Shown: positions 13,792 through 15,282 of the stretch, in pieces
How positions within the stretch are numbered: position 1 is the first letter of the stretch
Layout of the letters: the number at the start of each line of letters is the position of its first letter
From: a virus
DNA length: 34,525 nucleotides
Virus record (IMG/VR): IMGVR_UViG_3300007539_000006
Coordinates: 1 to 34,525 of that record
Direction: 5' to 3' (one strand)
Translations under genes and position numbers: made by a program
The notes under the pieces: generated by a model
Databases searched by the model: none
What the model was told of the DNA's origin: nothing
Seen by the model: the letters and a program-made list of their open reading frames with translations, nothing else

Positions 13792-13973
13792 ACGCAGACT
13801 ATGAATACCTCAAATACTGCGCAGCACGCTCAGTGATCCCAAAACAGCACGACAAAACCCCAAGCGGCAAATGCACTTGGGGCCAGTGGTTTGAAAACAA
13901 GTTTGGTGAAAATCTTAATGTCTATCGACAAAACCTCATACGTCAGGTCCAAGAAGCTGCTACAGGCTTCTAA
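13788..13973 (+). CDS. Small phage protein of the replication cluster
   Basis: The protein has 61 residues; ATG overlaps the previous stop (ATGA), with CAGG upstream. The sequence MNADYEYLKYCAARSVIPKQ, then GKCTWGQWFENKFGENL, is compact and basic. Its end overlaps the next gene by 56 bp in another frame. The family is familiar as a tiny protein near phage nucleases, but no function is known. Confidence 0.65.
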   Translation: MNADYEYLKYCAARSVIPKQHDKTPSGKCTWGQWFENKFGENLNVYRQNLIRQVQEAATGF

Positions 13974-14247
13974 AGACCAAAGCTGTGTGAACTGTGGTGC
14001 TGTTGGCACTGTGGTAGGCGCGCACTTGCAAGGGATGCGAGCGCACAGCTTTGGCAAAGGCCGGGGCATCAAACCGCATGATTTTTGTGTGGCTGACTTG
14101 TGCATGAAATGCCACGCCAAATTTGACTATTACGAGTCGACGGCGGGTAAAAACCTGCAGTTACGCATCGACCACTCCGAGCAGTTTCTGTATTGCGTCC
14201 TTAAAACCATTGAGCGTCGCTTTGCAGATGGAACGATAAAGGTTTGA
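13918..14247 (+). CDS. HNH/DUF1364-type nuclease-domain protein
   Basis: The protein has 109 residues from ATG 13918 (GGTGA upstream). The zinc-site pattern is CVNCGAVGTVVGAHLQGMRA, then HSFGKGRGIKPHDFCVADLC, MKCHAKFDYY. Two CxxC-type pairs plus AHL and CHAKFDY resemble the HNH-like DUF1364 proteins found with phage recombination genes (putative nuclease for branched or single-stranded DNA). Earlier in-frame starts would extend into the preceding gene without a ribosome site. Its stop overlaps the methyltransferase ATG (TGATG). Confidence 0.75.
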   Translation: MSIDKTSYVRSKKLLQASKDQSCVNCGAVGTVVGAHLQGMRAHSFGKGRGIKPHDFCVADLCMKCHAKFDYYESTAGKNLQLRIDHSEQFLYCVLKTIERRFADGTIKV

Positions 14248-14975
14248 TGCGTGTACTTGATCTATTCAGTGGCGTTGGTGGCTTCAGTCTCGGCTTGGAG
14301 GCAGCGGGCATGGAAACTGTTGCGTTTTGTGAGCGCGAGCCGTTCTGCCAAGCGGTGCTGCGCAAGCATTGGCCCGACGTCCCTATTCACGACGACATTA
14401 CACAGTTAGATGGAAAAGCGTACAGAGGAACAGTTGAGCTTGTTTGCGGAGGATTCCCCTGTCAGCCGTTCTCCGTCGCTGGGAAGCGTCGAGGCGCAGA
14501 AGATGACCGCGCACTCTGGCCAGAAATGCTCAGAGTCATACGCGAGGTACAGCCCACTTGGGTCATTGGCGAAAATGTTACTGGGATCATCGCAATGGAA
14601 CTCGACACGGTGCTTTCTGACTTGGAAGGCGAAGGCTACGCCTGCCAAGCGTTTGTACTTCCAGCTTGTGCCGTTGATGCCCCACACCGCAGAGACAGAG
14701 TTTGGGTTGTGGCCGACGCCCAGAGCAAGCGAATGGAAAGGAACGGGGCCTTTAGGGTCAAAGAGCCACAACCATCGACTAGAAAGGGGTTATTTGGATG
14801 CGACAGTCCAAGAGGCAAGCCAAGAATCTGGGAGTCTGAACCCAGCGTGGGTCGAGTGGCTAATGGGGTTCCCAATAGGTCACACCGACTTAAATCCCTC
14901 GGAAACGCAGTCGTTCCGCAAGTCGTTGAGCAAATCGGCAAAGCCGTGATGGAAATACACGATGTCGCAGGCTGA
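14247..14975 (+). CDS. dcm: DNA cytosine-5 methyltransferase, short form
   Basis: The protein has 242 residues. The C5-MTase motifs are all present in order: DLFSGVGGFSLGLE (I, residues 5-18), GGFPCQPFSVAG (IV, catalytic Cys72), GENV (VI), HRRDRVW (VIII) and LKSLGNAVVPQVVEQI (X). The target-recognition part between VIII and X is only about 50 residues, much shorter than in free-standing enzymes. It would methylate phage DNA against host restriction or for regulation. ATG 14247 (TGATG coupling) is chosen over TTG 14244. A second open frame of 179 codons lies entirely inside this gene. Confidence 0.9.
   Translation: MRVLDLFSGVGGFSLGLEAAGMETVAFCEREPFCQAVLRKHWPDVPIHDDITQLDGKAYRGTVELVCGGFPCQPFSVAGKRRGAEDDRALWPEMLRVIREVQPTWVIGENVTGIIAMELDTVLSDLEGEGYACQAFVLPACAVDAPHRRDRVWVVADAQSKRMERNGAFRVKEPQPSTRKGLFGCDSPRGKPRIWESEPSVGRVANGVPNRSHRLKSLGNAVVPQVVEQIGKAVMEIHDVAG
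14410..14949 (+). CDS. Overprinted protein-like frame inside dcm (WPTP...WVEWLMGFP family)
   Basis: The 179-codon frame lies +1 to dcm and fully nested in it. The product has MTAHSGQKCSESYARYSPLG, WNSTRCFLTWKAKATPAKRL, FGLWPTPRASEWKGTGPLG, SKSHNHRLERGYLDATVQE and LNPAWVEWLMGFPIGHTDL. I recall the same series of motifs in numerous phage-encoded proteins of unknown or methyltransferase-related annotation, so this is unlikely to be a chance frame. Part of the pattern follows from dcm codons (GRVANGVP gives WLMGF). The GSKSH...YLDATVQE block lies over the variable dcm target domain and is not explained that way. No clear ribosome site precedes ATG 14410. Confidence 0.5.
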   Translation: MEKRTEEQLSLFAEDSPVSRSPSLGSVEAQKMTAHSGQKCSESYARYSPLGSLAKMLLGSSQWNSTRCFLTWKAKATPAKRLYFQLVPLMPHTAETEFGLWPTPRASEWKGTGPLGSKSHNHRLERGYLDATVQEASQESGSLNPAWVEWLMGFPIGHTDLNPSETQSFRKSLSKSAKP

Positions 14976-15282
14976 AGAAGAATTTGCCCTGATATTGCGT
15001 GCAGCAAAGGTGCCGTTTGAGCGCGAGTATCGGTTTCACGACACCAGGCGATGGCGTTTTGATTTTGTGATGCTGCCGCTTGAGGCAAAGATTGCTGTAG
15101 AGATCGAGGGCGGGGTGTTTACTCAGGGTCGGCACACCAGGGGCAAAGGGTTTACTGAGGACCTTCTAAAGTACAACGAGGCCGTGATGTTGGGGTGGCG
15201 CGTATTGCGCTATACCACGGCGCAAATCCATGGCATTGCGCTAGAACAAGTCGAGGCGTTGTTAGATGAATACGGACGTTGA
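14962..15282 (+). CDS. VSR/DUF559-like endonuclease
   Basis: The protein has 106 residues. PD-(D/E)xK-type core: FEREYRFHDTRRWRFDFVML with the Asp, then KIAVEIEGGVFTQGRHTRGK with the ExE, and a helix FTEDLLKYNEAVMLGWRVLR. This is the small VSR-like endonuclease type often carried by phages near replication genes, where it may act as a resolvase or mismatch nuclease. It overlaps the end of dcm by 14 bp; VSR-type nucleases commonly accompany C5 methyltransferases. Its stop is overlapped by the next gene (17 bp). Confidence 0.8.
   Translation: MSQAEEEFALILRAAKVPFEREYRFHDTRRWRFDFVMLPLEAKIAVEIEGGVFTQGRHTRGKGFTEDLLKYNEAVMLGWRVLRYTTAQIHGIALEQVEALLDEYGR

Follow-up and report, generated by a model that had tools for sequence, protein, structure and literature searches.

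A +1 gene nested in a phage C5-cytosine methyltransferase gene as the likely recognition subunit of a two-part enzyme

The window analyzed here is a virus record of 34,525 bases (IMG/VR record IMGVR_UViG_3300007539_000006, in full), and it carries a C5-cytosine DNA methyltransferase (dcm) locus in which two reading frames are open over the same DNA. Frame A belongs to the C5-methyltransferase family, and frame B, which is nested in it one base further on (+1), is proposed to encode the recognition part of the same enzyme. Both frames lay where the first-pass annotation of this DNA had placed them, with the +1 offset that it had described (frame A, 14244-14975, from the TTG; frame B, 14410-14949). 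The features of the locus are given below.

14244-14975, + strand: frame A, predicted catalytic (alpha-like) subunit of a C5-cytosine methyltransferase, starting at TTG 14244 or ATG 14247 (PF00145, PHROG_363, and predicted fold)
14259-14282, + strand: motif I of frame A, DLFSGVGG (sequence)
14457-14465, + strand: motif IV of frame A, PCQ, with the catalytic Cys (sequence; invariant in alignment A6 of A proteins)
14571-14579, + strand: motif VI of frame A, ENV (sequence; invariant in alignment A6)
14685-14699, + strand: motif VIII of frame A, HRRDR (sequence)
14715-14885, + strand: segment of frame A at the position of the target-recognition domain (TRD), residues 158-214, probably mostly filler and not a TRD (conservation, predicted local distance difference test [pLDDT], and weak constraint in relatives)
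14898-14921, + strand: motif X of frame A, LGNAVVPQ (sequence)
14410-14949, + strand: frame B, nested +1 gene for a proposed recognition (beta-like) subunit of 179 amino acids, ATG at 14410, stop at 14949 (PHROG_1008)
14410-14697, + strand: N-terminal part of frame B, over motifs IV-VIII of frame A (both frames constrained in relatives)
14710-14814, + strand: module WPTPRASEWKGTGPLGSKSHNHRLERGYLDATVQE of frame B, a proposed TRD module (12 unique instances among the loci collected)
14836-14892, + strand: motif-IX-like end of frame B, LNPAWVEWLMGFPIGHTDL (conservation across 82 B proteins; like element in PFR1 gp45)

According to passages in PMC3404938, ordinary C5-methyltransferases have the order motifs I to VIII, TRD, IX, and X, motif IX is part of the TRD-bearing small domain, and all specific DNA contacts in the solved enzymes come from that small domain. 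Frame A matched PF00145 at 7.4e-50 and PHROG_363 at 2.1e-84. It contains the catalytic motifs I, IV, VI, VIII, and X, and its predicted fold outside the TRD position resembled M.HhaI (Z 22.8, root mean square deviation 2.4, 185 aligned), which together place it in PF00145. A TRD and motif IX were not found in the same chain, as judged by Pfam reach, predicted disorder, and conservation. The PF00145 match covered only model positions 1-183 of 324, residues 168-194 and 196-220 were predicted to be unstructured (pLDDT below 50), and residues 158-195 had no column at 90% conservation in alignment A6. The structure predictions took as input 55 of 94 selected A relatives and 81 of 94 selected B relatives. 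Nine other C5-methyltransferase genes from eight host genomes matched PF00145 to about position 320, eight of them in one stretch and one in two. The Pfam reach alone is not decisive, since a fused relative in Gordonia phage Jabberwocky (see below) also matches only positions 1-164. The first-pass annotation had called frame A a complete C5 methyltransferase; the early end of the Pfam match suggests that it is probably not complete.

Frame B matched PHROG_1008 at 9.8e-36. No Pfam or NCBIfam family matched it at E values up to 1, and no PDB sequence matched frame B or alignment A2 (from which L018 and L139 are excluded) at E values up to 10. Its conserved end, LNPxWVEWLMGFPxGWTDL, resembles the consensus of motif IX, which reads RKLTPRECWRLQGFP in the methyltransferase of Streptococcus phage P0094, and residues N144, P145, E149, M152, G153, P155, G157, and T159 were each conserved in at least 90% of 82 B proteins. 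By a loose pattern, 0 to 13 TP-type motifs followed the core of B in 133 genes. In two viral loci (L086, 1498-2772, and L087, 1213-2796), B contains several PTP-type modules and is open for more than 400 codons, and repeat-like A sequence lies over the same DNA.

The openness of frame B is not forced by the dcm codons. Frame B has no stops in the window; when the synonymous codons of A were exchanged among their own positions, the mean was 4.84 stops, and zero stops occurred in 0.10% of 20,000 shuffles. For the relatives, the expectation was obtained by resampling each gene's own synonymous codons. Among unique genes retrieved with A as the query, 57 of 64 had no B stop from PCQ to LGNA, compared with 0.56 expected, and the B stops of the other 7 all lay past motif IX, so that all 64 were open from PCQ through motif IX. 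Frame C of these same genes had 6 to 19 stops in each. With B as the query, 60 of 73 unique genes had no B stop from PCQ to LGNA (1.53 expected). These counts require both reference motifs, which were present in 76 of the 80 A-query loci; 4 of these 80 and 9 of the 87 B-query loci were left out. Among clustered representatives, B was open through motif IX in 38 of 39 (0.19 expected), 9 of the 48 having been dropped because the motif pattern failed; with stops counted across the whole profile envelope, B was open in only 22 of the 48. Similarity to the window's B was also lost upon recoding: the TRD part scored a mean of 142 in relatives versus 40 after recoding (z above 3 in 98/98) and the N-terminal part scored 239 versus 94 (z above 3 in 97/98), scores that partly reflect shared ancestry.

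The comparison of synonymous and nonsynonymous change in both frames, which the first-pass annotation had proposed, was run on the relatives and revealed purifying selection on B. In 27 disjoint pairs, the A-only part showed an ordinary pattern, with 0.117/0.067/0.420 differences per site at A codon positions 1/2/3. Over the core (catalytic) overlap the values were 0.114/0.050/0.162. The third position of A, which is the second of B, thus fell from 0.420 to 0.162 at a level A identity (0.877 and 0.887). In the TRD the values were 0.309/0.170/0.218, the most variable position being the first of A, which is the third of B. Changes were also classified by their effect in both frames (12 disjoint pairs). 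Those silent in A and changing B amounted to 0.363 per site in the A-only part, 0.109 in the core overlap, and 0.074 in the TRD; those changing A and silent in B amounted to 0.047, 0.048, and 0.203, respectively; and those changing both amounted to 0.032 in the TRD. With the effect in A written first (S, silent; N, changing), SN/SS was 0.18 (0.13-0.28) over the N-terminal part of B in the core overlap versus 0.65 in the A-only part, and NN/NS was 0.157 (0.11-0.23) in the TRD versus 0.47 (0.33-0.65) in the A-only control, which sets the baseline of the latter ratio below 1. For the 12 unique forms of the window's module, identity at codons outside the search pattern was 0.45 in B and 0.27 in A, with differences of 0.40/0.37/0.61 at B codon positions 1/2/3; these codons were used because pattern-fixed codons inflate the figures (B 0.78, A 0.36, 0.19/0.18/0.56). 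Both frames are conserved and constrained. At the TRD position, constraint is stronger on B than on A. The two frames thus swap importance at motif VIII, with constraint on both in the catalytic half and mostly on B in the TRD. Overprinting, one of the two explanations offered by the first-pass annotation, is thus borne out by the openness of frame B, which far exceeds chance, and by the purifying selection on it, and B is very likely a real second coding frame.

The nested arrangement is widespread. B was found in 166 phage records (tblastn, 1e-3 or better) and frame A in 960 at 1e-10 or better, and a pattern scan for B relatives gave at least 591 viral stretches (80 kept) and 406 genome stretches (80 kept). 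In the first round, the B match lay at +1 to the dcm match in 87/87 loci, in three of which (L039, L040, and L064) the dcm frame was not open across the whole match, by coordinates. Profiles of the catalytic part, motif X, the B N terminus, and the B end were then used on 257 loci, and the exact nested arrangement was present in 236, including the window. The N-terminal part of B had its best match at +1 in 251 loci (the 236 exact ones, 12 with the best A-end or B-end match in another frame, and 3 without end matches) and had a match in no other frame in the remainder, which comprised five loci without a B N-terminal profile match and one (L058) that was cut short. None of the 257 loci, all of which were fetched with B, A, or hits of B-type queries, contained B without A, which bears on the first-pass question of whether B stands alone or always lies within dcm. 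Loss of B in close relatives with dcm intact, the outcome that would have spoken against a second gene, was not seen: the N-terminal part of B was at +1 in 80/80 A-query loci, and B was open in the 64/64 genes counted. In eight loci (L072, L073, L143, L144, L180, L185, L192, and L242), the A end and the B end were both shifted by one base relative to the catalytic part. Five B loci (L222 and L224 to L227) lie in one Roseovarius chromosome record, and the identical A protein shared by the five methyltransferase loci of that genome suggests several related prophages or copies.

The eight host genomes gave 30 loci, of which 22 were unique and had a catalytic-part match (7 duplicates and 1 locus without such a match were excluded). 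All 13 loci with a Pfam match ending by position 238 had a +1 B-profile match, whereas none of the 9 with a match to about position 320 had one. A strict motif IX pattern matched frame A in only 2 of these 9 genes. Over the counted stretch, frame B was free of stops in 7 of the 13 split-type loci and had 1 to 7 stops in the other 6; in two of these 6, the counted stretch was the whole open reading frame (ORF), as the reference motifs were not found there; L279 had a B-end match only, and L277 and L285 look like near copies. The canonical comparison consisted of the 9 host genes and P0094, and the viral scan with L258 gave one locus.

Related sequence also occurs as a single chain. Propionibacterium phage PFR1 gp45 and Jabberwocky gp4 each have the catalytic part, PTP modules, a B-like end, and motif X in one reading frame. 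The B-like end of PFR1 gp45 is LSARFVEWMMGLPDG; this protein matched PF00145 in one stretch (positions 20-312 of 324) and a B-end profile (BT) at 3.9e-6, so that the link between the B end and motif IX runs through PFR1 and, weakly, through Jabberwocky. Jabberwocky gp4 matched both PHROG_363, the A family, and PHROG_1008, the B family. By eye, only remnants of the B-like stretch were present in the +1 frame of either phage; this +1 stretch suggests that the two forms may have arisen by re-fusion. A trade-off of two families in the same DNA, the other explanation offered at first pass, therefore holds in part, with the addition that B-type sequence stands in the catalytic frame of these two phages as one chain. 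In two further alleles (L183, 2820-3808, and L239, 2793-3712), A continues in frame from its catalytic part into the B end; these may reflect errors of assembly, decayed copies, or natural fusions.

A half-split form was found in four actinophage pairs (L289 to L292): Camperdownii 76/75, Yecey3 86/85, Lilbooboo 32/33, and Firecracker 6/5. Here, the catalytic ORF ends soon past motif VIII, and the +1 gene begins inside it, carries the PTP modules and motifs IX and X, and extends beyond the A stop. The recognition part has no overlapping open A frame in these pairs and thus cannot be an artefact of A. In a fifth phage, Jinkies, a B-type gene with motifs IX and X is present and the catalytic frame extends further.

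In general, these results are best explained if B is the recognition subunit and A the catalytic subunit of a two-part C5-methyltransferase, a reading to which we assign a probability of roughly 85% on the basis of sequence comparison. One stretch of DNA would then encode a heterodimeric enzyme. Frame A would supply motifs I to VIII and X, including S-adenosylmethionine binding and the catalytic Cys, and frame B, starting inside A, would supply a recognition subunit with an N-terminal part of its own, at least one TRD module, and motif IX. Together, the two subunits would form a functional methyltransferase, whose most likely role in a phage is to protect the phage DNA from host restriction. 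It is inferred that both proteins are made, that they interact, that the target is determined by B, and that the enzyme has this shielding role. The first-pass annotation had read B as a separate phage-type protein; B is the more constrained frame over the variable region and is most likely the recognition half of the same enzyme.

How such loci arose can be sketched with about even odds of being right as a whole. A large class of phage C5-methyltransferases would hide its DNA recognition in the +1 frame: two compensating frameshifts flanking the TRD and motif IX would have left the ancestral recognition domain in B, with the copy in A turning into filler, and the N-terminal part of B would have been overprinted on the catalytic domain. 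Over one half of the overlap each frame would then be the ancestral one and over the other half the new one, and the number and kind of methylated sites would be set by exchangeable WPTP modules in B. Multispecific phage methyltransferases have several TRDs as independent recognition modules in one enzyme.

Several observations weigh against the two-subunit reading. The collection of loci itself depended on similarity to B or A. Frame A is still under some constraint in the TRD (NN/SN, 0.43 [0.27-0.64]), and its residues W196, E199, R204, G208, and R212 are conserved at 90% in alignment A6. SS sites were few (7.5 changes on 28 sites in the TRD), which makes the SS-based ratios imprecise and leaves them without a usable upper bound. 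The B-end profiles did not match the canonical motif IX of P0094, and their matches in Jabberwocky were weak (BT, 0.009; BC, 0.048; best shuffled controls, 0.16 and 0.63, respectively). The predicted structure of B alone was also weak (pLDDT 66; predicted template modeling score, 0.28), with a best Foldseek E value of 2.2 and no chain among 201 reaching Z of at least 2; being of low confidence and without a match, it gives no support for a small-domain fold and does not speak against a TRD fold. For the window itself, the weakest point is the start of B at 14410, which had no Shine-Dalgarno pairing (+0.4 kcal/mol versus a median of -7 in relatives), so the window's B may be made weakly or by re-initiation. 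In favor of the reading, 124 of 131 relatives had a B start with ribosome-binding-like pairing (-5 kcal/mol or better) compared with 25% of 2072 internal start codons, the former figure being favored by the choice of the best candidate start and by an ATG bonus.

B might instead be an overprinted protein with a job independent of the enzyme, such as a methyltransferase antagonist or regulator or a counter-defence protein. The N-terminal part of its own that B keeps under selection, and the lack of any Pfam or NCBIfam family or fold match, would fit such a protein. It is unlikely, however, given that A has no recognizable TRD and motif IX and B has a motif-IX-like end at that very place, that PFR1 and Jabberwocky carry like modules within a single methyltransferase chain, and that the four half-split pairs have the modules with motifs IX and X in the gene that follows the catalytic part. 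The recognition-subunit reading also fares better than programmed frameshifting from A into B near motif VIII, which would yield a single fused protein in place of a separately initiated B. Such a shift would suit the in-frame alleles L183 and L239, the fused proteins of PFR1 and Jabberwocky, and the unpaired B start of the window, but the constraint on B already exists before the point of any such shift, over motifs IV to VIII, and nearly all relatives have a paired start codon there, so we regard it as quite improbable.

Least credible of all is that frame B is an artefact, i.e., an open frame forced by conserved dcm codons and yielding no protein. The canonical methyltransferase of P0094 does have a +1 ORF of about 140 codons (L296, 1601-2020) annotated as a DNA methyltransferase, so a B gene is not required for some of the openness; that ORF has no PTP modules or B-like end and is probably an annotation artefact itself. 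In the nested loci, however, synonymous recoding destroys both the openness of B and its similarity to relatives, divergence across the TRD tracks the codon positions of B, and the recognition part persists in the half-split pairs where A is not open.

Split C5-methyltransferases are already known from M.AquI and M.EcoHK31I, and annotators have seen nested ORFs. Lee, Kam, and Shaw (NAR, 1995) reportedly found the small subunit of EcoHK31I to be encoded within the gene for the large one, in a different frame. M.EcoHK31I (YGGCCR) consists of two polypeptides: the large one has motifs I to VIII and X and is predicted to hold the TRD, and the small one has only motif IX (PMC3404938); a passage in PMC3439449 calls the enzyme naturally split. 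As in its large subunit, motifs I to VIII and X are in frame A here; the B end is motif-IX-like by position and through PFR1, with no direct profile match to a canonical motif IX. Unlike in M.EcoHK31I, selection here puts the TRD mainly in B, a difference that is drawn by description only and from a reported prediction, which may not be a true defining feature. EcoHK31I was not named among the matches listed by plasmid searches. In M.AquI, the catalytic part is split from the recognition part between two subunits (PMC3404938), as is proposed here. Unlike AquI-type enzymes, in which motif X is in the small subunit, the window has LGNAVVPQ in frame A and a B that is wholly nested; the four actinophage pairs look AquI-like.

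The same nested +1 gene lies inside a DNA-cytosine methyltransferase gene in Paenibacillus larvae phages Lily (LILY_63) and Rani (RANI_51), whose records call it hypothetical with the note "internal gene" and, unlike here, propose no function. The accessible sections of two P. larvae phage papers do not discuss the overlap. In K1G, the locus is annotated as two overlapping methyltransferases. PFR1 gp45 and Jabberwocky gp4 are like B in their PTP modules and B-like end and differ in having the recognition part in the catalytic frame with motif X. No paper on a class of nested phage methyltransferase genes was found in the literature searched. Apparently new are the placement of the TRD in B as well, the wide distribution of the design, and the fused and half-split relatives that suggest its origin.

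If the two-subunit reading is correct, gene annotations may lack the part of many phage methylating enzymes that reads the DNA. In nested loci, target choice would lie outside the annotated methyltransferase; specificity predictions based on that protein would mislead, and so would cloning the annotated ORF with B disrupted. The modules of B are candidate interchangeable recognition cassettes. The locus class would also show, in nature, an old domain that has come to be read from a second frame while fused, half-split, and nested forms all survive, and it offers a direct test of the origin of overlapping genes.

Elsewhere in the window, matches were found to an integrase, an Erf-like annealing protein, a single-strand DNA binding protein, a terminase, a portal protein, a major head protein, and a tail fibre. 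The methyltransferase locus lies 3' of the single-strand-binding gene, immediately after an ORF (13891-14247) that matches HNH endonucleases (PHROG_131, 2.8e-14) and overlaps the TTG start of frame A by 4 bases. On the other side, an ORF at 14962-15282, which matches a family of unknown function (PHROG_503, 1.1e-36), overlaps the end of frame A by 14 bases.
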